Below the pieces are notes generated by a model that did not search any database, had not been told where the DNA came from, and worked only from the letters and a program-made list of their open reading frames with translations. This document shows positions 1-42,710 of a DNA stretch of 42,710 bases, in pieces (position 1 is the first letter of the stretch; each line of letters starts with the position of its first letter). The position numbers and the translations under genes were made by a program. The stretch comes from a virus. The stretch is from positions 1-42,710 of the IMG/VR virus record IMGVR_UViG_3300047316_000349, one strand, 5' to 3'.

Positions 1-28
1 TGACAGCATATTGGAATTCGAATACTAT
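1..28 (+). promoter_or_regulatory. Candidate sigma70 promoter for the left-arm early operon
   Basis: The window opens with TGACA (one base short of a full TTGACA -35 box) followed, after 17 bases, by TACTAT at 23-28 as a -10 box. The first gene starts at 42, so the leader would be very short. The -35 assignment depends on the base just outside the window being T. Confidence 0.45.
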
Positions 29-41
29 AGAGATACACCTT

Positions 42-275
42 ATGTCTATGACACCTTCTATCACCCGTAAACAGTGGGACCTGTTCAACGAGGCCACTTC
101 GATTGCCCTCACGCTTGTGAACTCGAAGCTGGTCGAGTATAAATCCCAAGGCTATGAATCTGCCGTATACGAGGGATGGCTTGAGGAGGTCCGCGAAGCC
201 AAGCTGGCACTGCAAGCCATCAGCGCGGCCATGCCCTTCGAGGTCTGGTACGCCAAGGAGGAGGTGGCGGCATGA
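42..275 (+). CDS. Small early protein of unknown function, 77 aa
   Basis: No family is recognised. The protein is acidic and predicted mostly helical, with a Trp/Tyr-rich C-terminal part and no Cys, membrane segment or signal peptide. The start is the first ATG after the candidate promoter; a second ATG two codons on is equally possible and no strong Shine-Dalgarno is visible. Its stop overlaps the next start as ATGA, so the two genes are translationally coupled. It is the first gene of a run of small early phage genes; function cannot be assigned. Confidence 0.6.
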   Translation: MSMTPSITRKQWDLFNEATSIALTLVNSKLVEYKSQGYESAVYEGWLEEVREAKLALQAISAAMPFEVWYAKEEVAA

Positions 276-481
276 GAAAGCTACCTCACACCCAGCCCGA
301 TCCGGAACGCTATGTCTCGCTCGACCCCGCCGAGTTTCACAGGATGCAGATGGCGGGTTACACCGTATGCCGGGAAGTTTTCCCGAATAATCACCTCAAG
401 CGCACCCGTTACTCGGCCAAGGCCAAAGACGTGGTGTCGTTTTATAGAGCGCAATTACACCCTTGGGAGAGGAGCAACTAG
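272..481 (+). CDS. Small early protein of unknown function, 69 aa
   Basis: No family is recognised. The protein is basic and soluble-looking, with a single Cys. It starts on an ATGA overlap with the upstream gene and ends directly against the ATG of the zinc-finger gene (TAGATG). The tight packing on both sides, rather than any motif, supports it being a real gene. Confidence 0.6.
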   Translation: MRKLPHTQPDPERYVSLDPAEFHRMQMAGYTVCREVFPNNHLKRTRYSAKAKDVVSFYRAQLHPWERSN

Positions 482-856
482 ATGACGTGCGAATGCGATT
501 TTGATTGTGTAGGCGATCCCGCCCATTACGTCCGGTCGAACCACTCGACCTTATGCCCCGAGCATGATATGTGCTCGATCTGCGATGACGCCAAAGCGGT
601 GCTCATCGTAAACGGCGACAAGTGCTGCAAGGATTGCGCGCTCGAAGACATCACGACCTGCCCGAACTGCGGATGGGAAACGAACTTTACCGAGCACTCT
701 TCCGTCAGCCGGGAGTATCACGGCGAAACGCAGGACGAAGAATGGCTGACCTGCAACCACTGCGGTAAAGAGACGGACGAGGCCGAACTACAACGCCACC
801 GTCTCGCACGCATGGCCGGGATTCAGAAGCAATTAGCGGAACTGGGGCTGGCATGA
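482..856 (+). CDS. Cys-rich zinc-finger protein, 124 aa (left-arm copy)
   Basis: Contains a Cys-rich N-terminus (three Cys in the first nine residues), then CxxC motifs MCSIC, CCKDC, CPNC and CNHC, enough for two or three zinc-ribbon-like knuckles. The last 30 residues form a charged helix. The encoded protein is a clear homologue of the product of 40616-41014: by eye 54 of 65 residues match over the first half, while the C-terminal halves diverge. A nucleic-acid-binding or protein-binding adaptor role in early phage development is plausible from the zinc knuckles, but no function is established here. It overlaps the next gene by ATGA. Confidence 0.75.
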   Translation: MTCECDFDCVGDPAHYVRSNHSTLCPEHDMCSICDDAKAVLIVNGDKCCKDCALEDITTCPNCGWETNFTEHSSVSREYHGETQDEEWLTCNHCGKETDEAELQRHRLARMAGIQKQLAELGLA

Positions 857-999
857 CCGTACTGCTGCTTTGGTGGATCTCAATAGAAGGCTGTCTCCTT
901 GGATTGCTTTTATGGGGGATAAGCTCACGGCTAGATCGAATCGATATTAAACTAAACGCCCTAACAGACGTTCTGCTCGACAAGGTGGGAAAGCCATGA
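853..999 (+). CDS. Tiny membrane protein, 48 aa
   Basis: Begins on an ATGA overlap with the zinc-finger gene and ends on an ATGA overlap with the next gene. Residues 3-24 form a single strongly hydrophobic segment (Leu/Trp/Gly-rich) followed by a short charged helix with regularly spaced hydrophobic residues, so it is probably a single-pass membrane protein with a cytoplasmic tail. No family is recognised. Confidence 0.5.
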   Translation: MTVLLLWWISIEGCLLGLLLWGISSRLDRIDIKLNALTDVLLDKVGKP

Positions 1000-1088
1000 G
1001 CGATAGTTTTCATACCTTGCTGGCGATCCTGGCGTGGCTGTTTTTGCTCTATCGCTTGCACTCTCTGGTGTTTCCCGCATGTTCCTAG
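996..1088 (+). CDS. Tiny membrane peptide, 30 aa
   Basis: A 30-residue frame starting on an ATGA overlap. Nearly the whole chain from residue 7 to 27 is hydrophobic (Leu/Ala/Trp/Phe), as for a single transmembrane helix. Coupling to the preceding membrane gene supports translation, but a frame this short cannot be proven real by inspection. Confidence 0.4.
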   Translation: MSDSFHTLLAILAWLFLLYRLHSLVFPACS

Positions 1089-1269
1089 GACGGACTAAGG
1101 GCTTTGCCCTCGCGCGCACAAGGCCCTTTGCCCTACCGGGTTTTGGCTCCCCCTACGGGCTGCCCCCAAAAAGCTTCGCTCAAAGACCTTGCTGCTTTGC
1201 TACCCCACTCTCGCCGCCGAGGTCTCAGGGGTGATTTTCATCACCCCAATTCCATTTAAGGACAGCGAT
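1089..1269 (+). other. Intergenic region with two hairpins ahead of the GIY-YIG gene
   Basis: No gene is seen. At 1098-1110 AGGGC-TTT-GCCCT forms a compact hairpin, and the GGGC/GCCC words recur just after it. At 1228-1247 a perfect 7-bp stem (GGGGTGA/TCACCCC, loop TTTTCA) lies 22 bases before the nuclease start. Neither has a proper U-tract, so they could be weak terminators or translational control hairpins, which is common upstream of free-standing homing endonucleases. Confidence 0.5.
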
Positions 1270-1635
1270 ATGAGCAACTACGTGACTTACGCGATACAAG
1301 ACCCAAGAACTGATGGGTACGTTTATGTTGGACAATCCAAAGATTTTGAGAATCGCTGTAAAAAGCATTTAAGGAAGGGCAAAAGACGTCCAAAGATCAG
1401 TACGACCAATATAAAAACGTGGATCTATGATTGCCTTACTGCAGGTCTAGATCCGAAATTCATCACTCTTGAGATCGTATCCACTGAGCAAGAATCTCTT
1501 GCCTCAGAAACATACTGGGTAAAGAAGTTGTCTGCAGAGGGTCACCAGCTTCTTAATCGCTGGGATGAACACAGGAAAGTTATTAAATCAGTACAGCGGA
1601 AACCAGAGAAGGATCATGTCAACATCGCTCTGTAG
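1270..1635 (+). CDS. GIY-YIG homing-type endonuclease, 121 aa
   Basis: The N-terminus shows the GIY-YIG pattern as VTY at residues 5-7 and YVG at 19-21, followed by the conserved Arg (R29) in a basic helix, a downstream Glu in SETYW, and an Asn near the C-terminus (LLNRW). These are the catalytic elements of the GIY-YIG nuclease domain, here with almost nothing beyond the core, as in small free-standing phage mobile nucleases. The start follows a GGACAG ribosome site; an upstream in-frame extension is not conserved-looking. Base composition is clearly more AT-rich than its neighbours, supporting recent transfer. It overlaps the next gene by 20 bases. Confidence 0.82.
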   Translation: MSNYVTYAIQDPRTDGYVYVGQSKDFENRCKKHLRKGKRRPKISTTNIKTWIYDCLTAGLDPKFITLEIVSTEQESLASETYWVKKLSAEGHQLLNRWDEHRKVIKSVQRKPEKDHVNIAL

Positions 1636-1900
1636 TCCTTGCCGTTTGCACACTGCAACCGAATGGCAGAAAGAGCGATGCGCGGAACTGGCCGCGCTGA
1701 TTCACCTGGAAGAGCGTGTGCTCGATTCCTACCGTCAGGAGCTAGCGCACTTGCGGACTCTCAAAGGTGACCGATTAGAGGCACGCTTCGGATGGGAATC
1801 TCCCGCTGAAATGGAACGCTTCGAAGAACAGAAGAAGAACTGGATCGAATCGCTTGGAGAAATGTGGATAACTACGAAAGCAAAGGAAGGGAAACGATGA
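1616..1900 (+). CDS. Unknown early protein with charged helix, 94 aa
   Basis: ATG at 1616 is preceded by an AGAAGG ribosome site. A CxxC motif sits at residues 7-10, then the chain becomes a long Glu/Lys/Arg-rich helix with coiled-coil character. No family is recognised. The start lies inside the 3' end of the GIY-YIG gene, suggesting the nuclease was inserted immediately upstream. The stop overlaps the next start (ATGA). Confidence 0.55.
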   Translation: MSTSLCSPCRLHTATEWQKERCAELAALIHLEERVLDSYRQELAHLRTLKGDRLEARFGWESPAEMERFEEQKKNWIESLGEMWITTKAKEGKR

Positions 1901-2055
1901 ATGAATTACCAAAGCTGTTAGGCATCTGCCGGGAGGCCGACAAGCTGACGGAAGAGATGCGGCAGCGCCAGGCCGAAGAGGTCCAGCGCCAGGAACAGGA
2001 GTACTGGAGTGAACAGGTGCTCTACCGCCAGGAACGCAAGGAGGAACGGCAATGA
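1897..2055 (+). CDS. Small coiled-coil protein, 52 aa
   Basis: The start is on an ATGA overlap. After about ten residues the protein is a continuous Gln/Glu/Arg-rich helix, consistent with a short coiled coil. There are no membrane segments and no recognised family. It is coupled to the next gene through another ATGA overlap. Confidence 0.5.
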   Translation: MNELPKLLGICREADKLTEEMRQRQAEEVQRQEQEYWSEQVLYRQERKEERQ

Positions 2056-2429
2056 GCGTGACAAGCATACGCCGCACGGCCCAGCCGGTTGCGGACGATA
2101 CAGAACAGGAACCCGTCAACTGGAAAGAGTTGTCCGACGTGTATGGCGAAATCATCGATCATCTGTGCGATAGCTTGTGGGGCTTGCTCTACGGCCGCCA
2201 GGACTGGAACTCGCCGGATGAGGTAGTCGAGCACGTCCGAACGCGCATCAATCAACTGGAGAACGAAAACTCCGAGATGAATAGTATTGTGCAGGAGCAG
2301 GATCAAGTGCTGAAGCACACCGCAGAGCTTCTCGGAACAACGCTACGGGTTTCTGCAGAGAATGAGCCGAGGAAAACCGTATTAGGATTCTACGATCAAC
2401 ACGGCAACTTTATTACGCAGCAGGGGTAA
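2052..2429 (+). CDS. Unknown early protein with C-terminal coiled coil, 125 aa
   Basis: An acidic protein: a Trp-containing helical middle (residues 24-55) leads into a heptad-like stretch around 65-90 (QLENEN...). The C-terminus is less charged and ends near a Gly-rich tail. No family is recognised. Start on ATGA overlap; the next gene begins two bases after its stop. Confidence 0.6.
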   Translation: MSVTSIRRTAQPVADDTEQEPVNWKELSDVYGEIIDHLCDSLWGLLYGRQDWNSPDEVVEHVRTRINQLENENSEMNSIVQEQDQVLKHTAELLGTTLRVSAENEPRKTVLGFYDQHGNFITQQG

Positions 2430-2431
2430 CT

Positions 2432-2617
2432 ATGACACTCTTCTGGATCATTGTGCTGGCCCTGATCGCGGCTCCCATCCTGGCGTTCCTAGCGTGGGGA
2501 ATTCTCTATTGCTCCTGGTACGCATTCCTGTGGCTATTCTGGCTGGTAGGCACGGGCTTTATGGCGGTCTTGAATTTCCTCATTCCCACGAAAAAGGAGG
2601 ACTATGATGCTTTCTGA
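2432..2617 (+). CDS. Membrane protein, 61 aa, two likely TM helices
   Basis: Residues 3-26 and 30-52 are strongly hydrophobic with many aromatic residues (Trp, Phe, Tyr), ending in a short charged tail. A small phage inner-membrane protein is likely; holin-like or exclusion functions are conceivable but not shown. It overlaps the following membrane gene by 14 bases. Confidence 0.55.
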   Translation: MTLFWIIVLALIAAPILAFLAWGILYCSWYAFLWLFWLVGTGFMAVLNFLIPTKKEDYDAF

Positions 2618-2918
2618 AACGCGGAAGGAAAAACTCTTTGAATGGTCAGCGACTGCTGTGGTCTTGACCGCCATAGCTTGTGTCTTATTCTTTTTTGTCA
2701 TCGCAGGAACGCAAATGGTGCAAGAGCATGTTTCGTATCCGGTCGTTCTCGAAAAATACGATGACATCGATGGCTTCCACTTGCAGACAGAAGTGGGGAA
2801 AATAGACGTACCCTATCCTGTGTTTCAGCGCACACACAAGGGTGACCGCGTCAGGTTGAAAAGCCGCCCCCATGTTCTGTGGCTTCCCGCGACCTTGGAA
2901 TACCACCCGGACGAGTAA
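2604..2918 (+). CDS. Single-pass membrane protein, 104 aa
   Basis: A short basic N-terminus is followed by one transmembrane segment (about residues 17-37) and a 65-residue soluble domain rich in beta-prone residues, probably periplasmic. Two consecutive ATG codons are possible starts; an AAGGAGG ribosome site lies upstream. No family is recognised. Confidence 0.55.
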   Translation: MMLSETRKEKLFEWSATAVVLTAIACVLFFFVIAGTQMVQEHVSYPVVLEKYDDIDGFHLQTEVGKIDVPYPVFQRTHKGDRVRLKSRPHVLWLPATLEYHPDE

Positions 2919-2932
2919 GGAGGACCCCCGAC

Positions 2933-3298
2933 ATGGCTAGAAACGTAGCGTTTATCCGGCATGGCCGCGAGGTCACCAAATCCGGTTGGTGCGAAGTGTC
3001 GGGAAAGTTCTATCAGGTAACGGTGCCAGAATCGGAATACTTGGACTGGAGAGACGGAACGCTCATCCAACGCGCCATGCCGTCTCTCAGCAACGAAGAG
3101 CGGGAATTTATGATGTCTTCCACCACCCCGCAGGAATGGAAATTGATGATCTGGGAAATGCTGTACGCGGATCAGGTCGGCACTGGCTATGCGATGTCCC
3201 ATTGGCCGAAAGAGTCGGTTGAGCAAAACAAAGGAACCGAAATCGATCCAACGAAGAGGAATCAACACGGAACCGCACGTCATACGAAACCAGATTGA
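2933..3298 (+). CDS. Unknown early protein, 121 aa
   Basis: ATG at 2933 has an excellent AAGGAGG ribosome site 9 bases upstream, which fixes the start against an upstream in-frame ATG at 2879. Residues 1-45 look beta-rich; residues 60-95 are helical with several Met and Trp; the last 25 are hydrophilic. No membrane segment and no recognised family. Confidence 0.62.
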   Translation: MARNVAFIRHGREVTKSGWCEVSGKFYQVTVPESEYLDWRDGTLIQRAMPSLSNEEREFMMSSTTPQEWKLMIWEMLYADQVGTGYAMSHWPKESVEQNKGTEIDPTKRNQHGTARHTKPD

Positions 3299-3473
3299 CC
3301 GGGTGATCGAAGAACTCTCCGAAGCCACCCGGACTCTGGAGGTGATTCAGCATCACTACCGCGAAGTGAAGGACTGGGGCCGCTTCGGCCTGTACCTTCA
3401 GTTCGAGCACAAGTTTGGTGAGGTGCTGATGGGCCTGGATAAACAACGAAAGGAATTGAGAAATGCCCCCTGA
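3189..3473 (+). CDS. Unknown early protein, up to 94 aa, start uncertain
   Basis: The certain part is the 56 residues after 3303: a helical, charged protein ending in RNAP. The ATG at 3189 would overlap the upstream gene by 110 bases and has no ribosome site; a GTG at 3303, five bases after the upstream stop, is an alternative giving 56 aa. The last 11 bases are shared with the start of the next gene in the junction motif GAGAAATGCCCCCTGA. No family is recognised. Confidence 0.5.
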   Translation: MRCPIGRKSRLSKTKEPKSIQRRGINTEPHVIRNQIDRVIEELSEATRTLEVIQHHYREVKDWGRFGLYLQFEHKFGEVLMGLDKQRKELRNAP

Positions 3474-3693
3474 CCCGGAAAGCAAGCCGGTCCATACCAC
3501 CTCGTATAGCGAATGGTATTACAACGTTCACCTTACCCCCAGAGAACTCGTACTCGACATTCTCTCGCAGGTCCTAGGAAAGCTCGATGATCCGCATACG
3601 GACGATCAGGAGCGCATCAGCTTTACCCGCCTGAAACTCAGTTTCCTACTGGACTGGCTCAGACAGCTTGACAAGGAGAGAAATGCCCCCTGA
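3463..3693 (+). CDS. Unknown early protein, 76 aa, bounded by junction repeats
   Basis: Starts MPPD and ends RNAP within successive copies of the junction motif. The first 25 residues contain several Tyr/Trp; the remainder is a helical, Leu-rich, charged segment. No family is recognised. Overlap of 11 bases on each side makes translational reinitiation likely. Confidence 0.6.
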   Translation: MPPDPESKPVHTTSYSEWYYNVHLTPRELVLDILSQVLGKLDDPHTDDQERISFTRLKLSFLLDWLRQLDKERNAP

Positions 3694-3898
3694 TGTGAAA
3701 ACCTACCCTTGTGGCTGCAAGCACGATGGGTTCGCCATGGCACCGGGTAGTTTTATCTGCCGTGAGCACTTCACTACAGACAAGCGCCACTTTTGCGATG
3801 CGTGGGATTTCCTGCTGATCGACAAAAACAGCCGCGAATTTGTCTCGTGTCAATGTTTCGACAAGTCACAAAAGGGAACGGAGAGAAATGCCCCCTGA
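3683..3898 (+). CDS. Cys-rich early protein, 71 aa, bounded by junction repeats
   Basis: Starts MPPD at 3683, directly after an AAGGAG ribosome site, and ends ERNAP. Cys residues at CGC (10-12), FICREH, FC and CQC suggest a small zinc-binding fold; the CREHF motif resembles phage zinc-ribbon proteins. No specific family is recognised. The gene sits in the same cassette arrangement as its neighbours. Confidence 0.6.
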   Translation: MPPDVKTYPCGCKHDGFAMAPGSFICREHFTTDKRHFCDAWDFLLIDKNSREFVSCQCFDKSQKGTERNAP

Positions 3899-4008
3899 CT
3901 TGGAGAACAACTTACGACGGCAACTGCAAGGGCATCTGCCCTTGAATGAGCATGTCCCGCGTGTACTCTCCAGCGAATGGCAGACGCTTCAGCCTTTCGG
4001 AGACGGCA
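3883..4008 (+). repeat. 126-bp segment repeated exactly at the window end (first copy)
   Basis: Every base from 3883 to 4008 matches 42585-42710; the base immediately upstream differs (a versus c). The match starts at the first base of the junction motif and runs to the last base of the window, inside the 3888-4295 gene. An exact end overlap of this size is what an assembler leaves where a circular path rejoins itself. Confidence 0.9.
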
Positions 4009-4295
4009 ATGCCTATCGGCATCGCAACGGGCTGCGCGTCATCGTTACGACGGCAGACTTTCCTGACGGACGCGACTGGATGCATATCTCTGTGTCCCGC
4101 GCTGACCGCTTGCCGAATTGGGATGATCTCAAGCTCGTGAAGTCCACCTTTGCCGGGAATGACCGCTACGCCTATCAGGTGTTCCCGCCAGCTGATCAGC
4201 ACGTTAACATTCACGACTTCTGTCTCCATCTGTGGGTCCCGCTCACGGGCGAGCCGCCGCTGCCCGACTTCACACGTGGCGGCAATACAATCTGA
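3888..4295 (+). CDS. Phage protein, DUF7694-like, 135 aa
   Basis: Central residues contain RDWMHISVSR..DRLPNWDDL and a later AYQVFPPADQHVNIH segment ending in FCLHLWVPL; I recall this pattern from a phage-borne uncharacterised family (DUF7694), so the family name is from memory. Function is unknown. In the loop reading of this contig, the gene lies directly downstream of the Gp157-like gene at 42017 and so belongs to the RecT early operon; in the stem it follows the 71-aa Cys-rich gene. Confidence 0.7.
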   Translation: MPPDLENNLRRQLQGHLPLNEHVPRVLSSEWQTLQPFGDGNAYRHRNGLRVIVTTADFPDGRDWMHISVSRADRLPNWDDLKLVKSTFAGNDRYAYQVFPPADQHVNIHDFCLHLWVPLTGEPPLPDFTRGGNTI

Positions 4296-4298
4296 GAA

Positions 4299-4547
4299 AT
4301 GCCCCTGCTTCCTGAAAAGATCAGCGTTGCGTTATACCGTCACGAATGGCACTTAGTGCTCGCTGGGCTGTTAGCCCTAGAAAAGCAGGTGACATTCAAG
4401 CAACCGGATTTCCCGCAGATCATCGTGGACATCCATCTGACGCAACGCGCCATCGAGAAAGTCGTCAAGACCGCAGAAGCACCAGTGTCCATGCCACAGA
4501 TAAAGGTCCCCGCGCAAACGCCTGAACCGAAAGCGGAGTTCCGATAA
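4299..4547 (+). CDS. Unknown early protein, 82 aa
   Basis: Begins at the variant junction (GAGAAATGCCCCTG), three bases after the upstream stop. Residues 8-55 are helical with hydrophobic spacing; the last 25 are Pro/Lys-rich and probably disordered. No family is recognised. It is the last plus-strand gene before the convergent minus-strand pair; the 25-base gap shows no clear terminator. Confidence 0.55.
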   Translation: MPLLPEKISVALYRHEWHLVLAGLLALEKQVTFKQPDFPQIIVDIHLTQRAIEKVVKTAEAPVSMPQIKVPAQTPEPKAEFR

Positions 4548-4572
4548 CTCTGAATACTGTAAAAAGAGTGCC

Positions 4573-4968
4573 CTAGCGGCGTGGATTTCCCGGAAATAGA
4601 TAGCGCGCCACGATGGCGATCAGGCCCAGGATTCCGGTGGCGGTCCCGGCGATCAAAGAGATCACCACCGGGTCGCCGAGATGAAAACCCTGGAACTGAA
4701 ATCCGTCGATCAGAATGACAACCACGATAAAGGCGAGCCAGGCCACCAGCACGAAAAAAATGCGCTGAGCATACAGCTTGCGTTCGGAAATATCTTGCCG
4801 GAGGCCACGGATCTGCTCGAGAACCTGCGCCGTTTCAAAGGCCTCTCGTTCCTCTTCTGATTTCTGATCCGGCTTTTCGCTGACATGCGCAGGACGGGCC
4901 TTCAGGATTTCATCCCGTATGTGATCGCCATTGGTCTCCGGGGGTTCAGTCGGTTCGGGCACTGACAA
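4573..4968 (-). CDS. Two-TM membrane protein, probable Panacea-linked toxin (PanT-like), 131 aa
   Basis: The first 45 residues are hydrophilic and acidic, followed by a short coiled-coil-like helix (46-68) and two transmembrane segments at about 70-87 and 100-124; the second has a Thr/Gly-rich core and ends YLFP. The gene overlaps the 3' end of the Panacea-domain gene by 23 bases and is read with it. Small two-TM proteins encoded next to Panacea (DUF4065) proteins are known toxin partners that disrupt the membrane; assigning this one as toxin is inference from that arrangement and architecture. Confidence 0.6.
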   Translation of the reverse strand: MSVPEPTEPPETNGDHIRDEILKARPAHVSEKPDQKSEEEREAFETAQVLEQIRGLRQDISERKLYAQRIFFVLVAWLAFIVVVILIDGFQFQGFHLGDPVVISLIAGTATGILGLIAIVARYLFPGNPRR

Positions 4969-5458
4969 AATGCTCTTTGATGACCTGGTCCGGAATGGTC
5001 AGACCTTTCCGTCCGGGATTCCTGTTATAAACCAAAAACCACGGGGAGTCCGGGGCATGCGTAAGATTGGAAAGCTGAATGGCGGAAAAGTCGCCATAGG
5101 CTTCCCAGATTGCATCTAGTAGAGCTTTTGTTTGCTGATTGATCAGTGGGTAGAGATAGTCATCGATCGACGGCGTGATGAAGCGATAGGGATCTAATTC
5201 GGTCGGTGCAAACTCCGTCGCTTTGGCGGTGATGGGACTACTGCCATATCGCTTGAACTCGTCATAGAGCGAGGGGATAACCGGCCCGTAGGGCCACGCC
5301 TGTACGAGTTCATCGATCAATGGCCGATCGTAGAAGACCAGATTCCAGGCGTGCGCGTAGTACACCAGCTTCTGGATCTTCATGGGATTCAGAGTTTGCC
5401 CGTGGATACGGGCCAGGTCGAGGAAATAGTTGGCGATCGCTTTGGCCGAGTAAGGCAT
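4946..5458 (-). CDS. Panacea-domain (DUF4065/SocA-like) protein, probable antitoxin, 170 aa
   Basis: The motif series is characteristic: an N-terminal SAKAIANYFLDLA helix, then LNPMKIQKLVYYAHAW, AWPYGPVIPSLYDEFKRYG, and a late SAIQLSNLTH followed by PW. This is the DUF4065/GepA/SocA fold, renamed Panacea, a chaperone-like antitoxin domain that neutralises many unrelated toxins. ATG at 5458 matches the usual family N-terminus; a TTG at 5494 would add 12 residues. As the first gene of the pair it would be made before the membrane partner, the usual antitoxin-first order. Confidence 0.82.
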   Translation of the reverse strand: MPYSAKAIANYFLDLARIHGQTLNPMKIQKLVYYAHAWNLVFYDRPLIDELVQAWPYGPVIPSLYDEFKRYGSSPITAKATEFAPTELDPYRFITPSIDDYLYPLINQQTKALLDAIWEAYGDFSAIQLSNLTHAPDSPWFLVYNRNPGRKGLTIPDQVIKEHFVSARTD

Positions 5459-5494
5459 CCGTCCGTGACGTGAGCAGCGATTAGACTGTCCCAA

Positions 5495-5677
5495 GAAGAA
5501 CAGGGGTGTATAAAATTTGGCAGTTGAGAGCGCCGCTGATCACCCGCGCTTTTTAGGATAAAGCAGGCGGTTTGAGGCGGTTTCCCGCTACACTATTTGC
5601 ACTAGATAGACACCACGGGCGGCTCGTAGTCTGCGCTGACAAAAGAGTGAACGGTGCAGTCACGGGCCGCTCCGGGT
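5495..5677 (-). promoter_or_regulatory. Intergenic region upstream of the Panacea pair with tandem operator-like repeat
   Basis: On the plus strand AGGCGGTTT occurs at 5565-5573 and again at 5575-5583, a 9-base direct repeat with a 10-base period, i.e. one helical turn. A minus-strand TTTATAC lies near 5510-5520 as a possible -10 element without a convincing -35. The region would hold the promoter and operator of the toxin-antitoxin pair. Confidence 0.4.
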
Positions 5678-8818: not shown

Positions 8819-10111
8819 ATGGCGTCTCGCCGTCACATTCCGGAAATGCCTTTAGCGTCTAAGCTATCATTGACTCCAGAGGAGGTGGAGCAATTGGCGA
8901 GACGCAGAGCGCAACACCCGAAGGTTTTTAAAGAAAATGGCATGTGGGTTCTTCGCCCGGTTATGGATGCGATCAACGAAGAGGGCAAACTCGTACCCAC
9001 GCGCCCGCGGCATTATATTGGGCCGGCGGCCGGCACCGATAAGATCAGCCGGGAGGCTGCCCAGGACATTGCCGATAACGGTGTTCTCAAACAACTGAAC
9101 CGCTTCGTGCAACAGCCGCAGAGCATCGTGCGGATCGCGGGCTTTGTCGAGCAGAAGTTTATTCCCGAATGGGTCGAAAAGAAGAAGTGCGCCGGCAAAG
9201 AGCATTATCAGTATTGCCTCAAGAAGGCCATGTCGGTGATTGGTGACGTTCGGTTGCGGGATTTCAAGGTCGGCGATGTGCGCCGGCTGTGTGCGGTGTT
9301 AGAGGAGCAGGGATGTTCGCCGAAGACCATCAAGAATGTGAAAACGGCAGTGGTCACGGTGATCAACTTTGCGAAACAGGAAGGCTACTTTTGCGGTGAC
9401 AACCCGGCGCAACTGGTGCGGCTTGAAGCCAGTCGACCCAAGGAACGCTACAGTTATTCCTTCGAGGATGCACAATTGGTGCTGGCTGAACTTGGTACGC
9501 CCGTGGCTGAAATGGTGTTTACGTCCATGACGACCAGCTTGAACGTGGCTGAGCTCTGCGGTCTGCGTAACAAACGCTTAAATCTGACAGGCGCGACGCG
9601 CTTCTCGGCCGGCGAGGCAATCCCGCCCTTCTCTGCCCTGGTGCGCGAAAACTATTACCGCAACACTTGGGGCACGGTGAAAACCGGCAAGCGTTACCGC
9701 ACGGTCGGTCTGCCGGACTATGTCGTCGAGCGGCTGCTGCGGCTGGCGGAATCCTCGCCGTTCAAAGGGCCGAATGATCCGGTGTTTGCCAGTCGTGCCG
9801 GCACGCCGATGGATGCGCATAACGTAAACAACCGAGCGTTCAAAAAAGTCAGTAACAAGCTGAATCTCCCTGTGACGTGGCATATCTTCCGGCACTCAGC
9901 CGCCAGCTTTGTCGAAGCGATGGACATGCCGCTGAGCGATCGCGAGAAAATTATGGGGCATGCCAACGCGCAGCAGACGATGCACTATACGCACTCCGAT
10001 GTAGCACGCCGGCGAAAGAATCAGAATCAACTGGCCGAACGCATCATACCGGAACGTGATAAGCGCATGCGCGATCTGATGCGCACGGAGGTAGCAGGAC
10101 CAAAGCAATGA
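8819..10111 (+). CDS. int: Tyrosine-type phage integrase, 430 aa
   Basis: Catalyses site-specific recombination between attP and the host tRNA-Pro gene. A core-binding domain covers about residues 105-200 and the catalytic domain about 210-400. Visible active-site residues: Lys288 in TVKTGKRYR, the HxxR box His355-Arg358 (HIFRH), His381 in IMGHA and the nucleophile Tyr390 in MHYTH. The first catalytic Arg, normally in the TGLRxSEL motif, is aligned with Asn242 (SLNVAELCGL), a notable change unless the Arg six residues on substitutes. The attP sequence lies about 250 bases downstream. Confidence 0.93.
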   Translation: MASRRHIPEMPLASKLSLTPEEVEQLARRRAQHPKVFKENGMWVLRPVMDAINEEGKLVPTRPRHYIGPAAGTDKISREAAQDIADNGVLKQLNRFVQQPQSIVRIAGFVEQKFIPEWVEKKKCAGKEHYQYCLKKAMSVIGDVRLRDFKVGDVRRLCAVLEEQGCSPKTIKNVKTAVVTVINFAKQEGYFCGDNPAQLVRLEASRPKERYSYSFEDAQLVLAELGTPVAEMVFTSMTTSLNVAELCGLRNKRLNLTGATRFSAGEAIPPFSALVRENYYRNTWGTVKTGKRYRTVGLPDYVVERLLRLAESSPFKGPNDPVFASRAGTPMDAHNVNNRAFKKVSNKLNLPVTWHIFRHSAASFVEAMDMPLSDREKIMGHANAQQTMHYTHSDVARRRKNQNQLAERIIPERDKRMRDLMRTEVAGPKQ

Positions 10112-16390: not shown

Positions 16391-16648
16391 ATGCAGAAAG
16401 ACGAATCGTTCCGCTGGCATCCGGCGCGAGCCAATTTAAAACCTATGCCTGAAACTGGAAAAGTAGAGACACTTACCGAAGCCGAGATCGACGCCTTCGA
16501 TCAAAAAGCACGCGAGCAATTTGAGCAGACGCTGCGTATGAGTCAGGCGCTGCGGGAAGCCTGGAAGCCGGAACCGGAAGAACCGAAGCCCGGCTCGGAC
16601 GAAGCCAAAGAAGCGATCCGCGACGCCATTAAGCAGGGCGCGGAGTGA
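16391..16648 (+). CDS. Unknown acidic helical protein, 85 aa
   Basis: ATG follows TGAGAA, similar to the GAGAAATG junctions elsewhere. After a basic start the protein is rich in Glu, Ala and Gln with long helix propensity and a Pro/Glu segment near the C-terminus. No family is recognised. Confidence 0.5.
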   Translation: MQKDESFRWHPARANLKPMPETGKVETLTEAEIDAFDQKAREQFEQTLRMSQALREAWKPEPEEPKPGSDEAKEAIRDAIKQGAE

Positions 16649-16651
16649 CAT

Positions 16652-17071
16652 TTGCGCCTGCTGGTGCTGGCGGCCTTTCTGCTGCTGGATGGGCCAACGG
16701 TCGCAGCGCAGCAGACCACGACGCCTGCGGAGCAGACGCGCAATCACCGCACCCGCTGGTGGCTGTCGGCCATAGCGGTACTGGGGGCATCGAGCGTGTA
16801 TACCGGAGCCACCCGCACGATCGAACCCGTCCCATCGCCACCAGGGCAACCGCCGAATCTGGGGCGCGGCGTGGGAATCGTGGTCACTAAACAGCTCGGG
16901 ATCAACTTTGGCATTACCGGCACGATCCTGGCGACGGAATGGTTCTTATTGAAGTACAAAGGCAGGAAATATCCCAAGATCGAGCCCTTGTTCATGGGCC
17001 TGAACTATGCGGGCGCGACGGCCTTGAGCCTGGACGCCGCCGTCGAATTGTCGGGGAAGAAGCCGAAGTGA
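16652..17071 (+). CDS. Exported or membrane protein, 139 aa
   Basis: TTG start. Residues 1-20 resemble a signal peptide or anchor (RLLVLAAFLLL then AxA before AQQ). Further hydrophobic segments occur around 37-52, 80-98 and 110-125, so it may span the membrane several times. A recognised family is lacking. The next gene starts on a GTGA overlap. Confidence 0.5.
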   Translation: MRLLVLAAFLLLDGPTVAAQQTTTPAEQTRNHRTRWWLSAIAVLGASSVYTGATRTIEPVPSPPGQPPNLGRGVGIVVTKQLGINFGITGTILATEWFLLKYKGRKYPKIEPLFMGLNYAGATALSLDAAVELSGKKPK

Positions 17072-17160
17072 CCATTGACCGTTTCTTCGCGGTGATGTTG
17101 AGCGTGCTCGCGGGCATGCTCTTCGTGTTCGCAATCATGCTGCTGATCGGAAGGAGTTAG
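17068..17160 (+). CDS. Tiny membrane peptide, 30 aa
   Basis: GTGA overlap start. Residues 6-27 form one hydrophobic helix rich in Val, Leu, Met and Phe. Its gene lies between an exported protein gene and a virion-like protein gene. Reality rests on coupling and composition only. Confidence 0.4.
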   Translation: MTIDRFFAVMLSVLAGMLFVFAIMLLIGRS

Positions 17161-17167
17161 TTGAACA

Positions 17168-17743
17168 ATGGCTAAATTAACGAGCGATGCTCGCAATCAA
17201 TTGAAGTCCTCGCAGTTTGCGCTGCCGGGCTCGCGGCGGTTCCCGATCCCCGACCGGGCTCACGCTGCCAACGCCAAGGCACGTGCTACGCAAGGCGTGA
17301 AAGCCGGAACGCTCTCGCCCGCTAGCGCTGCGAAGATCCGGGCCAAAGCGAATGCGAAGTTGGGCAATCCCGGCGTCACGCAGGACTTGAATGCGCCTGG
17401 CAATCGCAGCCCGCTGACGCCGAATCAGGAAGACATAAATAATTACAAGAGTCGTCCCGTAACGACAAGGGGGAAATTCATGGCGAACAGTCAGGGGAAG
17501 GGCACGGCCGCGGACAGCGGCGCAGGCACCAACTTCAAATCACAGCCGAAGTTCGGCGGCACGCAGGTGCCCGTCGCATCGAAGAAGGGGCAGGCCAAGG
17601 TGTCCGGCGGCACAGAGCAGACCGGCAAGAACTTCAAGGGACAGGCGAAGTTCGGCGGCACCGCATCCGGCAATGGCGGTACGCGCTATGCGAACGGGTC
17701 GAGCAGCCACGACTCGATGAAGGGTATGATTCGGGACCACTAA
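17168..17743 (+). CDS. Gly/Lys-rich phage protein with two-part structure, 191 aa
   Basis: Residues 1-75 contain LTSDARNQLKSSQFALPGSRRFPI-like sequence (given here in part) and AHAANAKARA, a pattern common to phage proteins of the head region. Residues 100-190 are low-complexity, with repeats of FKxQxKFGGT that occur at least twice. It is basic and probably disordered in its C-terminal half, perhaps binding DNA or the head. Function is unknown. Confidence 0.6.
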   Translation: MAKLTSDARNQLKSSQFALPGSRRFPIPDRAHAANAKARATQGVKAGTLSPASAAKIRAKANAKLGNPGVTQDLNAPGNRSPLTPNQEDINNYKSRPVTTRGKFMANSQGKGTAADSGAGTNFKSQPKFGGTQVPVASKKGQAKVSGGTEQTGKNFKGQAKFGGTASGNGGTRYANGSSSHDSMKGMIRDH

Positions 17744-23643: not shown

Positions 23644-24558
23644 ATGGCAGACGAAACAACCCCACAACCACCTGCCGAGATCACGAACTTCGCGCAGTTT
23701 GAAGCGGCGGGTGGCAAATACAATGCACCACCGGAACCGGCCAAACCCGCTGCGCCCGCCGAACCGGTAGAAGCGGTCGAAGCGAATCCGGAAGCGGACA
23801 CGGCCGAACAGCCGGAAGCAGACAAGACCGAAAAGAAGCCGCCCAAGCCCAAGCCGTCGCTCTCGGAAGAGCACGCCAAACTGCTCAAGGAAGTTACCGA
23901 ACTACGCCGGCAGCGCCGCGAACTACAAGCCCCGGCGGGACGGCCAACGAGCGACCAGCCGCTAGAGACGCAGCCCCCACAGGGTGCGGCCCAGCCGGAC
24001 GACAAGCCGGTGCGGCCGAAGCTCTCGACATTTCAAGGAACACTCGAGGAGTACGAAGCGGAGGTTGAAAAGTACGAGGAGAAGCAGCGCGCTTACATCG
24101 AGCGGCAATGGGAACGCAAGCAATCGGAGCAGCAGGCTAAGGCGACGCAGCAGAAGGTCACCGAAGCCTACGGGCAGAAGCTGTCGGAGCATCTGAAGGA
24201 ACACCCGGAGTACGACGCCGAGATTGCCCAGACGCCGATGTCGCCCTTGATGGTGGATATTGTGCTGCACGAAGGCCCGGCGCTCGGGCAGGCCCTGATC
24301 GAGGACAAGGACGAGGCGCGCAGGATTCAAGTGCTGCCGCGCGATATCCAGATCTTTGAAATGGGCAAGCTCGCCGCGCATCTTCGCTCGAATGGCGCCC
24401 TCCCGGAAGCTTCACTCCAAACGCCGCAACCCGTGAAAGTGCCCGTACGCCTGAATGCGACGGGCTCGAGCGTCTCGGCGGCCGCCAAGCCCGACCACGG
24501 TGCAAAAAGTTTCGCGCAGTGGGAAGAAGTAGAGCGCCGTTTGGCGAAGCGCAAGTAA
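23644..24558 (+). CDS. Putative scaffolding protein, 304 aa
   Basis: Highly charged and helical: residues 20-90 are Pro/Glu/Ala-rich and disordered-like, 70-100 and 135-195 are coiled coil, and the C-terminus is basic (VERRLAKRK). P22-type scaffolds are long, helical, and placed between portal and coat, with a basic C-terminal coat-binding end, matching these traits. There is no sequence motif to confirm it, so assignment rests on position and composition. Confidence 0.7.
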   Translation: MADETTPQPPAEITNFAQFEAAGGKYNAPPEPAKPAAPAEPVEAVEANPEADTAEQPEADKTEKKPPKPKPSLSEEHAKLLKEVTELRRQRRELQAPAGRPTSDQPLETQPPQGAAQPDDKPVRPKLSTFQGTLEEYEAEVEKYEEKQRAYIERQWERKQSEQQAKATQQKVTEAYGQKLSEHLKEHPEYDAEIAQTPMSPLMVDIVLHEGPALGQALIEDKDEARRIQVLPRDIQIFEMGKLAAHLRSNGALPEASLQTPQPVKVPVRLNATGSSVSAAAKPDHGAKSFAQWEEVERRLAKRK

Positions 24559-27547: not shown

Positions 27548-29128
27548 ATGCCACTCGTTGATCTCCCCGGAGCCATCGGTGCCACGTACACGGGAATTTC
27601 TGCGGCGGTTGCCGGCGAACGCTGCGTGAACCTGATCCCCGAAAAGGTGGAAGCGAACGGGAAATCCGCCTACTACTACGTGAAAGCGCCGGGATTGAGC
27701 GCGCCGGTCGCCGTGCCGGGCGGCACGCCCGTTTCGATCGCGCAGAACACCATCGTCGTGGGCGTCGGCATCGCGGCAAATGGCACCGCGCTCGATGCGG
27801 GTTTCGGCGGCGTCGCAGACAACGGCGTACCGCTCACCTTGCCCTCGCCCGGCCCCGGCGTGATGGCGGGCACCTACATCAACGGACGGCGCTTCTTCAT
27901 CATCAATGATGAACTGTACGAACTGACCGGCTCCGCGCCGCCGTTCACGCCCGTGGCGCTCGGCCCGACCGGGCCGGTGACCGGGCAGTACATGCGCTAT
28001 TCGATCGCGGTGAATATCAGAGGCAATCAGCTCTGCATTGCCTCGAACAACGTCACCTCCGTTTTCGATCTCACCACGAACACCTTCCATGCGACGGTCT
28101 CGACACCCGAGCCGCTGCTCGAGGTGGACGAGCTCGACGGCTACTTTCTGGGCCTGGCGGCCAGCGGCAACTTTTATATCTCCGGCTTTCAGGACGGCAC
28201 CACTTGGAACCCGCTCGATTTCACGTTTGAAGAGACGCCCGACCTCACGATGGGCTTTCGCGTATGCAACCGGCGCATCATGATGTTCGGCTCGAATCAC
28301 ATGGAGTCGTATGTCGATTCGGGCGACTCCAATTTCCCGTTCACCCGCGATCAATCGGTCTACGTCGAATCAGGCGCGTATCGCAACTCGCTGCTCATTG
28401 CCGATAACATGATCTTCGGCATCGCGGTGAACGCGCGCGGCGCGGCCTGGGCGTTTCGTTTAGTGGGCATCACGCCGCAGCGCATTTCGACGCATGCGGT
28501 TGAAACGAGCTGGCAGTCGTACCCAACCGTGCGCGATGTGAATGCGCGCACGTATCAGGAGAACGGGCACGAGTTCGTGCTCTTCGATTTCCCGGCCGGC
28601 AACGCGACCTGGTGCTACGACATCTCGACCGGCCTCTGGACCGAGCGCGGCGTGTGGAACGGCACGGGCTGGGACCGTGACTGGGGCGAAACGCATATTT
28701 ACGATACGGCGCTCGAATTGCATCTGGTCGGCGATTACCGCAATTCGTATATCTACCTCCAGAGCCAGACGTACTACGATTTCAACGGCACGCCGGTCTA
28801 CTGGGCGCGGCGCTTTCCGCATGTCAATTCGGATCAATCGGGCGTGGTCTACGACCTGGTGCGGCTGATCTGCCAGACCGGCGTGAACGGCACGCTGCCC
28901 GCGGGAACGCCCGCGACCATCACGCTCTCGAAATCGGAAGACGGCGGCTATACCTGGACGCAGCCGCTGCGCCCGGTGTCGATCGGCGCGGCCGGCGCCT
29001 ACAGCCGGAAGATCGACTGGCGCGCGCTCGGCTATGCGACCGATCGCGTCTTTGAGATCGCGGGCCACGACCCGATTCCGCTCGCGCTCATTGCCTTGAA
29101 GGGCCAGGTGCGGCCCTGCTTCAACTAA
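27548..29128 (+). CDS. P22 gp10-like packaged-DNA stabilisation protein, 526 aa
   Basis: Forms the second ring of the short tail in P22-like phages. Family traits visible: an N-terminal CVNLIPEKVE segment with SAYYYVKAPGL, a long series of beta-propeller blades (GRRFFIINDELYEL, GNQLCIASNN), the MMFGSNHMESYVDSGDSNFPF region and a late WTERGVWNG. Length (526) is close to gp10 (472). The N-terminus VDLPG and start context CCATGCCACTCG recur at two other genes. Order after gp4-like is the same as in P22. Confidence 0.87.
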   Translation: MPLVDLPGAIGATYTGISAAVAGERCVNLIPEKVEANGKSAYYYVKAPGLSAPVAVPGGTPVSIAQNTIVVGVGIAANGTALDAGFGGVADNGVPLTLPSPGPGVMAGTYINGRRFFIINDELYELTGSAPPFTPVALGPTGPVTGQYMRYSIAVNIRGNQLCIASNNVTSVFDLTTNTFHATVSTPEPLLEVDELDGYFLGLAASGNFYISGFQDGTTWNPLDFTFEETPDLTMGFRVCNRRIMMFGSNHMESYVDSGDSNFPFTRDQSVYVESGAYRNSLLIADNMIFGIAVNARGAAWAFRLVGITPQRISTHAVETSWQSYPTVRDVNARTYQENGHEFVLFDFPAGNATWCYDISTGLWTERGVWNGTGWDRDWGETHIYDTALELHLVGDYRNSYIYLQSQTYYDFNGTPVYWARRFPHVNSDQSGVVYDLVRLICQTGVNGTLPAGTPATITLSKSEDGGYTWTQPLRPVSIGAAGAYSRKIDWRALGYATDRVFEIAGHDPIPLALIALKGQVRPCFN

Positions 29129-29141
29129 CGCTTTAGATTCC

Positions 29142-29657
29142 GTGGCGATCAAGAAATTCTGGAATTACCAGGCCGCCTATCCGTGGGCGCGCACCACGGA
29201 CGGCACGCTGACGGACCAGTCGCGCATCTGGCTGCAGACGCTCTACCGCACGGTCGTCAATATCGATACAGGCGGCGGGTTCACGGCGGGCGGCGATCTC
29301 TCCGGAACGAACACGAGCCAAACCGTGATCGGGCTCGAGGGGCGTCCGGTGAGCGCAACCGCGCCCACAAACGGGCAGGTGCTGACCTGGGTTTCCAGCG
29401 ATAGCAGCTGGGAGCCAAAAACCCCGGCAGCTCCGACAGTTCCCATTGTTGTTCGGGAAGCGCCTGCCGGCACGATGGACGGAACGAACAAAGCCTTTAC
29501 CTTGAGCTTCACGCCGAACCCGGCGGCCTCGCTCACGCTCTGGCTGAACGGCGTCGAGCAGGTTTCGTCGTTCGATTATACGATCGCAGGCTCGGCCATT
29601 AACTATGCGGTCGCGCCGAAAAGCTCGGACCTGATGGTCGCGCAGTACACGCACTGA
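29142..29657 (+). CDS. Tail fibre or needle-like protein, 171 aa
   Basis: GTG start. Residues 45-90 carry GGGFTAGGDLSGTNTSQTVIG and a SATAPTNGQVLTWVSSDSSWEP segment (shown in part), common in phage tail fibres. The C-terminal 70 residues form a beta domain with a LWLNGVEQ strand. Position after gp10-like suggests the tail-tip or adaptor for the large fibre. Exact role is unclear. Confidence 0.65.
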   Translation: MAIKKFWNYQAAYPWARTTDGTLTDQSRIWLQTLYRTVVNIDTGGGFTAGGDLSGTNTSQTVIGLEGRPVSATAPTNGQVLTWVSSDSSWEPKTPAAPTVPIVVREAPAGTMDGTNKAFTLSFTPNPAASLTLWLNGVEQVSSFDYTIAGSAINYAVAPKSSDLMVAQYTH

Positions 29658-29658
29658 T

Positions 29659-31566: not shown

Positions 31567-31988
31567 TCCGGGCCGCTACCGCGGCGGATGTTCCGCGGCT
31601 GGTCGAAATGGGGCGGCGCTTTCGAAGCGTAACCGGTTACGCAAAGATCCTGGCTGAGAACCCGGAGAAGATGGCCGAACTCGCCGGTCAACTTGTGTCG
31701 CAAGGTGGCCTGCTGGTCGCAGAGCGCGGCGGCACGCTCGTCGGCATGTTGGGCTTTGTGGTGTTTCAGCACTTCATTTCGGGCGAACAGACGGCCAGCG
31801 AGGCCTTCTGGTGGGTCGAGCCGGAGTATCGCGGCGAAGGAATCAAGCTGCTGCGCGAAGCGGAAAAGTGTGCCAGAAATGCCGGTGCCGAAAAGATGGC
31901 GATGATTGCGCCGAACGAGCGGGTGGCGAATCTCTACAAGCGCCTCGGTTACGAGTTCGTCGAGTCTGCGTACCAAAGGACGTTGTGA
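31563..31988 (+). CDS. GNAT-family acetyltransferase, 141 aa
   Basis: Residues 1-10 give the first GNAT strand (MIRAATAADV), and the acetyl-CoA loop is seen as VEPEYRGEGIKLL (about 87-99) followed by the helix CARNAGAEKM and NLYKRLGYEF near the end. It transfers an acetyl group from acetyl-CoA to an unknown amine. Location within the fibre genes suggests modification of virion or host surface components, which is inference. It is coupled by ATGA and GTGA overlaps on both sides. Confidence 0.88.
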   Translation: MIRAATAADVPRLVEMGRRFRSVTGYAKILAENPEKMAELAGQLVSQGGLLVAERGGTLVGMLGFVVFQHFISGEQTASEAFWWVEPEYRGEGIKLLREAEKCARNAGAEKMAMIAPNERVANLYKRLGYEFVESAYQRTL

Positions 31989-32578: not shown

Positions 32579-32580
32579 GT

Positions 32581-38604: not shown

Positions 38605-39063
38605 ATGTCTACCGTAAACTTCAACGACACCACGCCGGCCACCAGTGCCGCCGGTACGGTCAACATCAAATTCCTGTCTGACGCCTCTGGAAACATCTCG
38701 GCCTATGACCCGGTGGGAACGTGGCAGACCTGGACGCCCACCCTGACCCCGCAGGGCGGCATGACCGTCACGAGTGCCACCCTCACTATCGGCGAATACC
38801 TCCGCGTCGGCCCGATTGTTTATTTTCGCTTCCAGGTCAATGCCACCGCCGGCGGCACCTTGTCCAATCTGATCTACGTCTCGCTGCCTCCAGTTGCTTA
38901 CAGCACCAGCGGCAGCATGATCGGAGCCCTCAACTGGCAGCAGGCGCAACCGACCGCCGGCATGCTCGCGATAACCACTACCGAGTTCCGCTGCTATGGC
39001 CCCAGCGCGTTCGTTGCCGGCACCTTTATCCTGAGCGGCTGCGGGTTCTACCGTTGCGCCTGA
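38605..39063 (+). CDS. Virion-like protein, paralogue 2, 152 aa
   Basis: Paralogous to the preceding gene product: VNFNDTTPA, VNIKFLSDASGNISAY, WQTWTPTL and an end in GFYRCA line up along its whole length, with diverged middle parts. The downstream bases after both stops (TCCCRCTYT) are alike too, consistent with tandem duplication. A strong ribosome site (AAGGA) precedes it. Confidence 0.6.
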   Translation: MSTVNFNDTTPATSAAGTVNIKFLSDASGNISAYDPVGTWQTWTPTLTPQGGMTVTSATLTIGEYLRVGPIVYFRFQVNATAGGTLSNLIYVSLPPVAYSTSGSMIGALNWQQAQPTAGMLAITTTEFRCYGPSAFVAGTFILSGCGFYRCA

Positions 39064-39070
39064 TCCCGCT

Positions 39071-41014: not shown

Positions 41015-41036
41015 GTAAGAAGGAAAAAGAAGGAAA

Positions 41037-42017
41037 ATGAGTACAGCATTGACGATGCCTGAGCAGCGCGTGAGTTTTACCCGCGACCAGGTGCAACTCT
41101 TGAAGGACACCGTGGCGAAGGGTGCCAGTGACGACGAATTTAAATTGTTCCTGGAGGTCTGCCGCTCGAAGCGGCTGGACCCGTTCGCGCGCCAGATCCA
41201 TGCGGTGAAGCGCTGGGATTCCGGCCTGCGCCGTGAGGTGATGTCGTTTCAGGTCGGCATTGACGGCTTCCGGGCGCAGGCGGAACGCAGCGGGCGCTAT
41301 GCCGGCCAGGATGCGCCCCTCTGGTGCGGCTTGGATGGCGAGTGGAAAGACGTCTGGCTGGCGCAGCAGCCGCCGGTTGCAGCCAAGATGAGCGTCTACA
41401 AGCAGGGCTTTGCCAAGCCGGTCACACGCATCGCTCTGTTCAAGGAATACGTGCAGACGAACAAAGAGGGTTCGCCCAACAGCATGTGGACGAAGATGCC
41501 TGCCAACCAGCTCGCCAAATGCGCTGAGGCGCTCGCCTTACGAGCCGCTTTTCCGGAAGAGTTGAGTGGCTTGTATACGCCTGACGAAATGGGGCAATCG
41601 GAAAACGAGGTCCGGCGCGTCAAGCAGCCGCTGCCCATTCGGAGCAGGTCTCACTCTGATGCGCCGCCCGCTCCGGTCGCGGTGCCGGATGTGATCGACG
41701 TCACGCCGATCGCCGAGCCGCCGCAGCCGCCGGAAGAGGCGGGTGAGTTCCGCGTGCCGGCCGAGGGAGAACTGCGCAACGGCCTGCGCGAAGGCCTCGA
41801 GACGATCCCCAAGATCACGGACGCCTGGCGCCTCTTGCAAGTCGAGTACGATCGCGCCGGTTGCCGCGACGTGATCGAGCGGATTCAACAACGGTTTGAA
41901 CGGGATGCCCAGGGCAACCGCACGCCGCTGAGTCTGCGCACGGCGGTCGTGGTTGCGCGCCGCTGGCGGGATGACAACATGCATCTGTGGCTGCGCCAGC
42001 CGGGGGAGGAAGGGTGA
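41037..42017 (+). CDS. bet: Phage recombinase, Redbeta/RecT (Bet) family, 326 aa
   Basis: A single-strand annealing protein. Family residues: FLEVCRSKRLDPFARQIHAV near 38-57, SFQVGIDGFRAQAERSGRYAG (in part) at about 70-90, VTRIALFKEY and the ANQLAKCAEALALRAAFPEELSGLYT region at about 155-180 (given in parts). The last 130 residues are a Pro-rich linker and a helical domain, longer than in lambda Bet. No exonuclease partner is recognised; the VRR-NUC nuclease is elsewhere. The Gp157-like gene is next. Confidence 0.88.
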   Translation: MSTALTMPEQRVSFTRDQVQLLKDTVAKGASDDEFKLFLEVCRSKRLDPFARQIHAVKRWDSGLRREVMSFQVGIDGFRAQAERSGRYAGQDAPLWCGLDGEWKDVWLAQQPPVAAKMSVYKQGFAKPVTRIALFKEYVQTNKEGSPNSMWTKMPANQLAKCAEALALRAAFPEELSGLYTPDEMGQSENEVRRVKQPLPIRSRSHSDAPPAPVAVPDVIDVTPIAEPPQPPEEAGEFRVPAEGELRNGLREGLETIPKITDAWRLLQVEYDRAGCRDVIERIQQRFERDAQGNRTPLSLRTAVVVARRWRDDNMHLWLRQPGEEG

Positions 42018-42577
42018 TGGCGATCACCGAACAGCTGGCCATCGCCCCGGCGCCCGCGCCGCCAGCGGATGAACCGGGCGAGCTCGCAACCACGCTGCAC
42101 GAGATGCTCTCGCTGCTGGCGCAGTGCGAGGAGCCGGAAGATTCCGAAGAAGCCGCGGCGCTGGATGAAGACGTGAAACAAAACGTCGTGCAGGCGGTCA
42201 CGCAGAAGTTGCGCCGCTACCAGGCGTTCTTTTCGTTCTGTAAAGCGCAGACCGAGGAATGCAAGGCAGAGATTGAGCGCCTGCAGGCCCGGAAGAAAGC
42301 GATCGAGAGCGGCCGGGACCGGCTGCGTAAGTATTTGGCGCGCGCCATGAACGGCCACCGCATCAAGCGCCTGGACGCCGGAACCGTGGTCTTCACGTTA
42401 ATGCCCGGCGCGTGCTCGTTACTGATCACCGATGCCGAGCAGGTGCCGTACGCGTTCAAACAAGAAGAGATCGTGGTGAAGATCGATGACGCTGCTGTCA
42501 AGCGCGCGCTACAGGCCCAGGAAAAGGTGCCGGGCGCGACCTTGACGGTCGGCGAGCCGTTCGTGACGGTGCGATAG
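42017..42577 (+). CDS. Gp157-like siphovirus-type protein, 186 aa
   Basis: ATG overlaps the upstream stop (TGATG). The central helix pair (KQNVVQAVTQKLRRYQAFF then CKAEIERLQARKKAIESGRD) and the RLRKYLARAMN segment are typical of the Gp157 family, often found next to phage recombination genes. The C-terminal 70 residues are beta-rich (VPYAFKQEEIVVKID). Function is unknown. In the loop reading the next gene is 3888-4295. Confidence 0.75.
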   Translation: MAITEQLAIAPAPAPPADEPGELATTLHEMLSLLAQCEEPEDSEEAAALDEDVKQNVVQAVTQKLRRYQAFFSFCKAQTEECKAEIERLQARKKAIESGRDRLRKYLARAMNGHRIKRLDAGTVVFTLMPGACSLLITDAEQVPYAFKQEEIVVKIDDAAVKRALQAQEKVPGATLTVGEPFVTVR

Positions 42578-42584
42578 GCTAATC

Positions 42585-42710
42585 GAGAAATGCCCCCTGA
42601 CTTGGAGAACAACTTACGACGGCAACTGCAAGGGCATCTGCCCTTGAATGAGCATGTCCCGCGTGTACTCTCCAGCGAATGGCAGACGCTTCAGCCTTTC
42701 GGAGACGGCA
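42585..42710 (+). repeat. 126-bp segment repeated exactly from 3883-4008 (second copy)
   Basis: Identical to 3883-4008 at every base; the match starts exactly at the junction motif and is cut by the window end. The preceding sequence is the Gp157-like gene stop plus seven bases (GCTAATC), unlike the sequence before 3883. The natural reading is that the contig path returns here to position 3883. Confidence 0.9.
42590..42710 (+). CDS. DUF7694-like protein, 5' part (second copy, cut by window end)
   Basis: The first 40 codons of the gene at 3888-4295 are present unchanged, starting MPPDLENN. In a circular genome this is the same gene seen twice, not a second gene. The gene follows the Gp157-like gene by 12 bases, so it belongs to the RecT operon. 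Confidence 0.85.
   Translation, partial: MPPDLENNLRRQLQGHLPLNEHVPRVLSSEWQTLQPFGDG

Follow-up and report, generated by a model that had tools for sequence, protein, structure and literature searches.

The nin region of phage lambda is a set of interlinked genes. Whether phage mosaicism arises through random joins followed by selection or through homology at boundary sequences is a long-standing question, and it usually cannot be answered since most boundaries lack shared sequence. For lambdoid phages, short conserved boundary sequences have been proposed to serve module swapping by homologous recombination, as cited in PMC3029335; in other phages, boundary sequences were not findable at most boundaries (PMC3029335). 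In Cluster K mycobacteriophages, the short repeats termed SAS and ESAS mark where unrelated non-structural genes begin, with many copies per genome and near-absence elsewhere (PMC3203893). SAS is 13 bp long and lies upstream of the start codon, mostly after intergenic gaps of >50 bp, and half of the copies have inverted repeats (PMC3203893). T4-type phages carry PeSL cassettes, which are composites of a promoter and a stem-loop placed between genes according to the work cited in PMC4503421 (Arbiol 2010, Comeau 2014). Here we describe phage arrays of small genes separated by a repeated stop-start linker.

The window, meaning the whole 42,710-bp stretch analysed, is an entire IMG/VR record. The 16-mer GAGAAATGCCCCCTGA occurs exactly at 3458, 3678, 3883 and 42585, and the copy at 4294, GAGAAATGCCCCTGCT, is a four-C variant that a substitution-only scan overlooks because it has one C fewer. 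When up to 3 mismatches were allowed, dinucleotide-shuffled sequences gave a mean of 0.33 matches, with fewer than five in each of 100 shuffles. Alignment of the sites identified the 16-mer as the core of a linker, GAGAA-ATGCCCC, with an overall length of about 25–60 bp; the consensus GAGAAATGCCCC is followed by C or T, and GAAA at codon 6 and AGC at codon 8 are kept. At most sites the linker includes the start codon and overlaps or abuts the preceding stop. At 3458, 3678 and 3883 the upstream ORFs end in -RNAP and a stop, the downstream ORFs begin with MPPD, and the neighbouring genes share the 11-nt overlap ATGCCCCCTGA, whereas at 4294 the upstream gene stops at a TGA that runs into the first two bases of GAGAAATG. 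The initial annotation had located every one of these copies correctly, and the shared stop-start that it described (-NAP stop, MPPD start) is what we found at the three sites with the 11-nt overlap.

The conserved item is not a peptide. MPP and MPL starts are written in common nucleotides read in different frames (ATGCCCCCTGACAC-GGAAA versus ATGCCCC-TGACACCGGAAA), the difference amounting to one absent C offset by an additional one; in nearly all copies codon 2 is CCC, a triplet that makes up 26% of proline codons. Because the two starts are frame-shifted forms of one DNA and a single proline codon is fixed, conservation at the peptide level was ruled out and the shared item must be DNA or RNA. 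RNA folding over 35 junctions gave no excess of structure (mean z +0.4). The spacing of SD-like sequences near the linker varies, and the core itself is therefore not the ribosome-binding site.

Table 1. Features of the linker array and its surroundings in the window.
Feature	Position	Strand	Remarks
Alternative upstream version	1..3882	+	feeds linker at 3883; GIY-YIG gene, relative of 40616 gene; lacks recT and gp157
Linker copy 1, GAGAAATGCCCCCTGA	3458..3473	+	ends upstream ORF (-RNAP stop), starts MPPDPESK cassette
Cassette gene MPPDPESK..., 76 aa	3463..3693	+	matches no known family
Linker copy 2	3678..3693	+	
Cassette gene MPPDVKTYPCGCKH..., 71 aa (YPCGCKH cassette)	3683..3898	+	
Linker copy 3	3883..3898	+	upstream versions 1-3882 and 40409-42584 join one downstream sequence
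Cassette gene MPPDLENN..., 135 aa	3888..4295	+	DUF7694 (PF24746, 1e-24)
Linker copy 4	4294..4309	+	four-C variant, M-P-L start
Cassette gene MPLLPEKISVALYRHEW..., 82 aa (YRHEW cassette)	4299..4547	+	
Array 3' tail, TTCCGATAAC..GAATACTGTAAAAAG	4529..4573	+	
2-TM small protein	4573-4962	-	module adjoining array
Panacea antitoxin-domain protein	4946-5458	-	PF13274 3.4e-25; module adjoining array
Tyrosine integrase	8894-10111		
RecT-family single-strand annealing protein	41037..42017	+	PF03837 3.9e-35
Gp157-family gene	42017..42577	+	PF05565 2.1e-26
Linker copy behind Gp157	42585..42600	+	

The linker recurs in other viruses, all represented here by metagenomic contigs. Ten virus contigs hold about 45 copies between them; they represent four phage types with differing backbones, including 61-, 68- and 36-kb phages, and the largest arrays have 12 copies (G001, IMGVR 3300036401_000511, and G006, 3300036900_000443). 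An IMG/VR scan with the 16-mer returned 13 stretches, several with many near copies; matches in L003, L004, L009 and L010 were set aside as chance-like since they lack array context. Stricter DNA patterns in IMG/VR yielded no further contigs, and a looser one added a group of 36–37 kb phages (G021–G025). A linker profile made from 41 sites matched array contigs only; it had no match at E<1 in reversed sequence and one weak match (L105, E 0.36) in about 74 other RecT-phage loci. Scanning of 84,980 bacterial and archaeal genomes produced 61 isolated matches, none with a second linker and none in an array, which look like chance. Named phages gave no DNA match to the first 8 kb of the window or to the consensus linker, and their capsid protein relatives are <33% identical. 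With the linker confined to arrays, a general start signal of these phages was ruled out.

The genes between linkers differ from one another, are small and mostly unrelated, and each cassette is a single ORF running from linker to linker. Most match no family; one G006 cassette belongs to DUF3310 and the MPPDLENN gene to DUF7694. Alignments to DUF7694 relatives, which come from named phages and one IMG/VR contig, begin only near residue 17, and that contig (L264), the relative inspected, lacks the linker motif, which indicates that the leader was grafted on. C-terminal ends are also common to some cassettes, for example ...PQLPSRKTT. The gene 5' of linker 1 (3240–3310) is related to a linker-started G001 cassette (24050–24140, L045; 24074), and its own start region is free of the linker and looks decayed. 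In G001, the stretch 24284–24460 (L045), a relative of the G006 cassette at 57669, looks like a decaying cassette because the linker start is missing and a stop lies in frame.

The copy at 42585 had been counted by the initial annotation as a fifth repeat. The sequence is present, but it is ruled out as an independent repeat: the last 126 bp of the contig (42585–42710) are 100% identical to 3883–4008 and are an assembly-graph join, not a second gene copy. The assembly returns into its own interior, closing a 38,702-bp loop (3883–42584) and leaving 1–3882 as a second upstream version. Since the contig end rejoins base 3883, the two upstream versions meet at the linker; as previously noted, they become identical at the first base of the motif, which is preceded by A at 3882 and by C at 42584. 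The version without recT or gp157 encodes a GIY-YIG endonuclease domain gene (1270–1635). Each version also holds one of two cysteine-rich (CECDFDCVGDP) genes (482–856 and 40616–41014; 64% identical), relatives of which occur in G007, 5' of recT, and in the G024 early region.

The self-overlapping end, and the internal duplication of some junction stretches in G001, raise the question of whether the repeats reflect local duplication in one phage or chimeric contig joins. The ends of G001, G005, G016, G021 and G022 overlap by exactly 127 bp, from which we infer an assembler word of about 127. Linker repeats of 16–31 bp should not create false joins, since they are far shorter than such a word. 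The G003 and G005 contigs end about one word from a linker (121 bp past the linker start and 127 bp, respectively), which would fit assembly graphs branching at linkers. The same pattern recurs across independent metagenomes, and the unrelated genes between copies, of different families (DUF7694, DUF3310), rule out a recent local tandem duplication as the sole cause, the explanation that the initial annotation had set against its own. We regard duplication or artefact as extremely unlikely.

Comparison of relatives located the breakpoints. The closest relative found, G012 (3300047314_000370), matches the window at 99.8% identity along 597 bp whose last base, 42596, is base 12 of the 42585 linker; beyond that point it carries two other cassettes and then rejoins the window at 5581. 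Three joins display reassortment: gp157 to DUF7694 (42585), gp157 to MPLAQNK (G012) and YPCGCKH to DUF7694 (3883). The gp157 pair has at least 120 bp upstream and ATGCCCC in common, with 23% identity thereafter, and the DUF7694 pair has GAGAA alone in common upstream and at least 90 bp downstream. Both breakpoints therefore fall within GAGAAATGCCCC. The same gp157 gene precedes DUF7694 in the window, MPLAQNK in G012, MPPEDEIS in G001 and MPPETKYR in G007. The YPCGCKH cassette, taken from linker to linker (3673–3898), is matched at 79% in G001, where the next gene differs, and the YRHEW cassette (4294–4562) at 81.6% in the otherwise different 68-kb G006, beginning at the linker's first base. 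The 36-kb G024 has a different cassette pair followed by the window's Panacea two-gene module. Homology blocks with a minimum length of 100 bp have 27 internal ends, of which 7 fall no more than 12 bp from a linker ATG; shifting predicts 0.94 (P 0.0012, only indicative because the endpoints in this small sample are not all independent).

Gene exchange at the linker is well supported by these comparisons. The initial annotation had suggested that cassettes are exchanged at the junction and that related phage genomes be searched for it; homology blocks do begin and end there, the same genes have different neighbours, and both related and unrelated contigs carry the linker between different genes. 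Some exchanges are old, as the 18–21% divergence of shared cassettes shows. Unrelated junctions share exact in-register runs of 26–31 bp, and the shared patches around the linker reach variable distances on both sides; patches of 30 bp could have been homogenised later. A cassette known from G001 is shorter by about 20 codons in G024; at that point an internal CCGGAGTGGAAACAG is similar to CCCTGACTGGAAACAG, with which the linker begins, and we attribute the shortening to a join at this linker-like internal stretch, as expected under homology-driven joining.

It could be argued that the linker is mainly a start signal for expression, and that illegitimate joins survive only at gene boundaries, so that breakpoints would coincide with it but have another cause. 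Start codons do lie inside the copies, whose conservation runs on to codons 6 and 8, and SAS offers a published precedent for repeats at the starts of unrelated genes. However, other genes of the same phages do without the linker, its profile matching the arrays only, and linker-free relatives of cassettes exist (the gene before 3458 compared with G001 24074; DUF7694 in L264). The variable SD-like spacing speaks against the motif being the ribosome site itself, and a start signal would require less than the exact 26–31 bp shared by unrelated junctions. We consider this explanation unlikely.

We favour, with a probability of roughly 0.68, the reading that these are modular small-gene arrays in which the 16-mer forms the linker core, and that their cassettes are exchanged by homology-directed recombination that would leave the genes intact and coupled. 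The linker carries the preceding stop, the next start codon and the first ~8 codons of the next gene, so that any two cassettes joined through it remain in frame. The stop-start overlap would preserve expression, probably through translational coupling. Recombination between linkers may take place during co-infection or with prophages, and the enzyme could be host RecA, the RecT annealase encoded nearby, or both. The initial annotation had RecT encoded beside the 42585 junction; the gene is there, but Gp157 intervenes, placing recT one gene 5' of that first linker in the window, and we claim no such adjacency for the 61-, 68- and 36-kb arrays. Reported minimal pairing lengths are 23–27 bp for Red-beta and 31–34 bp for RecA (PMC3945230), and divergence between sequences does not prevent efficient recombination by lambda Red (PMC2327257). 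The 16-bp core by itself is below these minima, and the exact runs of 26–31 bp are within or above that of Red-beta (PMC3945230). Homology-directed exchange is favoured because of these runs, the ability of Red to recombine diverged sequences, the nearby RecT and the linker-like join in G024.

The layout of the arrays bears on a different mechanism. The Gp157 gene is the left anchor in the window, G001, G007 and G012, and the 3' tail is similar behind the last cassette in G012, G006 and G005, with variant forms in G001, G007 and G024. A tyrosine recombinase that inserted and excised cassettes at the linker in an integron-like manner might produce this fixed left anchor and conserved tail, as well as breakpoints confined to the 12-bp core, and integrase genes are close by (8894–10111 in the window; just 5' of the array in G006). 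Such a site-specific system is nonetheless highly unlikely: unlike attC, the junctions form no hairpin, the shared patches vary in extent on both sides, and the integrases appear to be ordinary phage integrases. The integrases of the window and G001 are 96% identical, far more so than most other genes common to both.

In a more speculative reading, which we consider possible but doubtful, the arrays would be a dedicated phage cassette platform in which the stop-start overlap is the exchange site and a phage protein acts on the linker, with a small accessory pool (perhaps anti-host or anti-defence) passing among unrelated phages in one host community.

Several other observations concern the surroundings of the arrays. 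First, the Panacea gene and its small 2-TM partner are likely a toxin-antitoxin pair. This module (4573 to about 5458–5494) is 83–87% identical in amino acids beside the array of the unrelated 36-kb G024, whose near-identical relatives also carry it, and is absent from G012, the closest relative. Second, a promoter-like sequence at 5581–5605, TTTCCCGCTACACT, recurs 3' of the G012 array and 5' of the G024 array, and GCTATACT/GCTACACT in G001 and G007 resemble it. Lastly, a 1-kb block of the window (38616–39671) is 95.6% identical in G012 but lies elsewhere in that genome, at 16559–17611, between segments matching window 27566–31271 and 31563–33477.

Some 45 boundaries across four phage types carry the same linker, whose 12-bp core holds the mapped breakpoints. 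This linker offers a concrete substrate for recombination tests, and the shared start is a handle for finding small accessory genes. Exact gene swapping at the linker, leaving genes unbroken, is a rarely documented route of phage mixing.

The linker pattern appears to correspond to the boundary-sequence hypothesis of mosaicism and to resemble SAS and PeSL. As with lambdoid boundary sequences, a short common sequence lies at the boundaries of unrelated modules and homology starts and stops there; the difference is that here one stop-start linker is used, up to 12 times per array and across different backbones. Like SAS, the linker marks the starts of some non-structural genes that are unrelated to one another, and in both systems a gene family may include members that have the repeat and members that lack it. 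The SAS consensus GGGATAGGAGCCC is nevertheless distinct from that of the linker, GAGAAATGCCCC, and so is the placement, since the linker contains the start and ~8 codons and overlaps or abuts the prior stop; it also shows no folding signal, and exchange breakpoints fall on it. PeSL cassettes, as far as the citing source describes them, likewise place a repeated functional element between small genes, with homology mediating shuffling, but the linker is a coding stop-start overlap with no excess of structure rather than a promoter and stem-loop. Integron arrays share the rows of single-ORF cassettes, the repeated separator and the fixed entry side; the linkers have no attC-like hairpin (mean folding z +0.4), and the integrases near the arrays appear to be ordinary PF00589 phage integrases rather than IntI. 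Consensus and placement set the linker apart from SAS, the lack of a stem-loop from PeSL and the lack of a hairpin from integron arrays. It resembles both lambdoid boundary sequences and mycobacteriophage SAS, yet is a new form among such systems.
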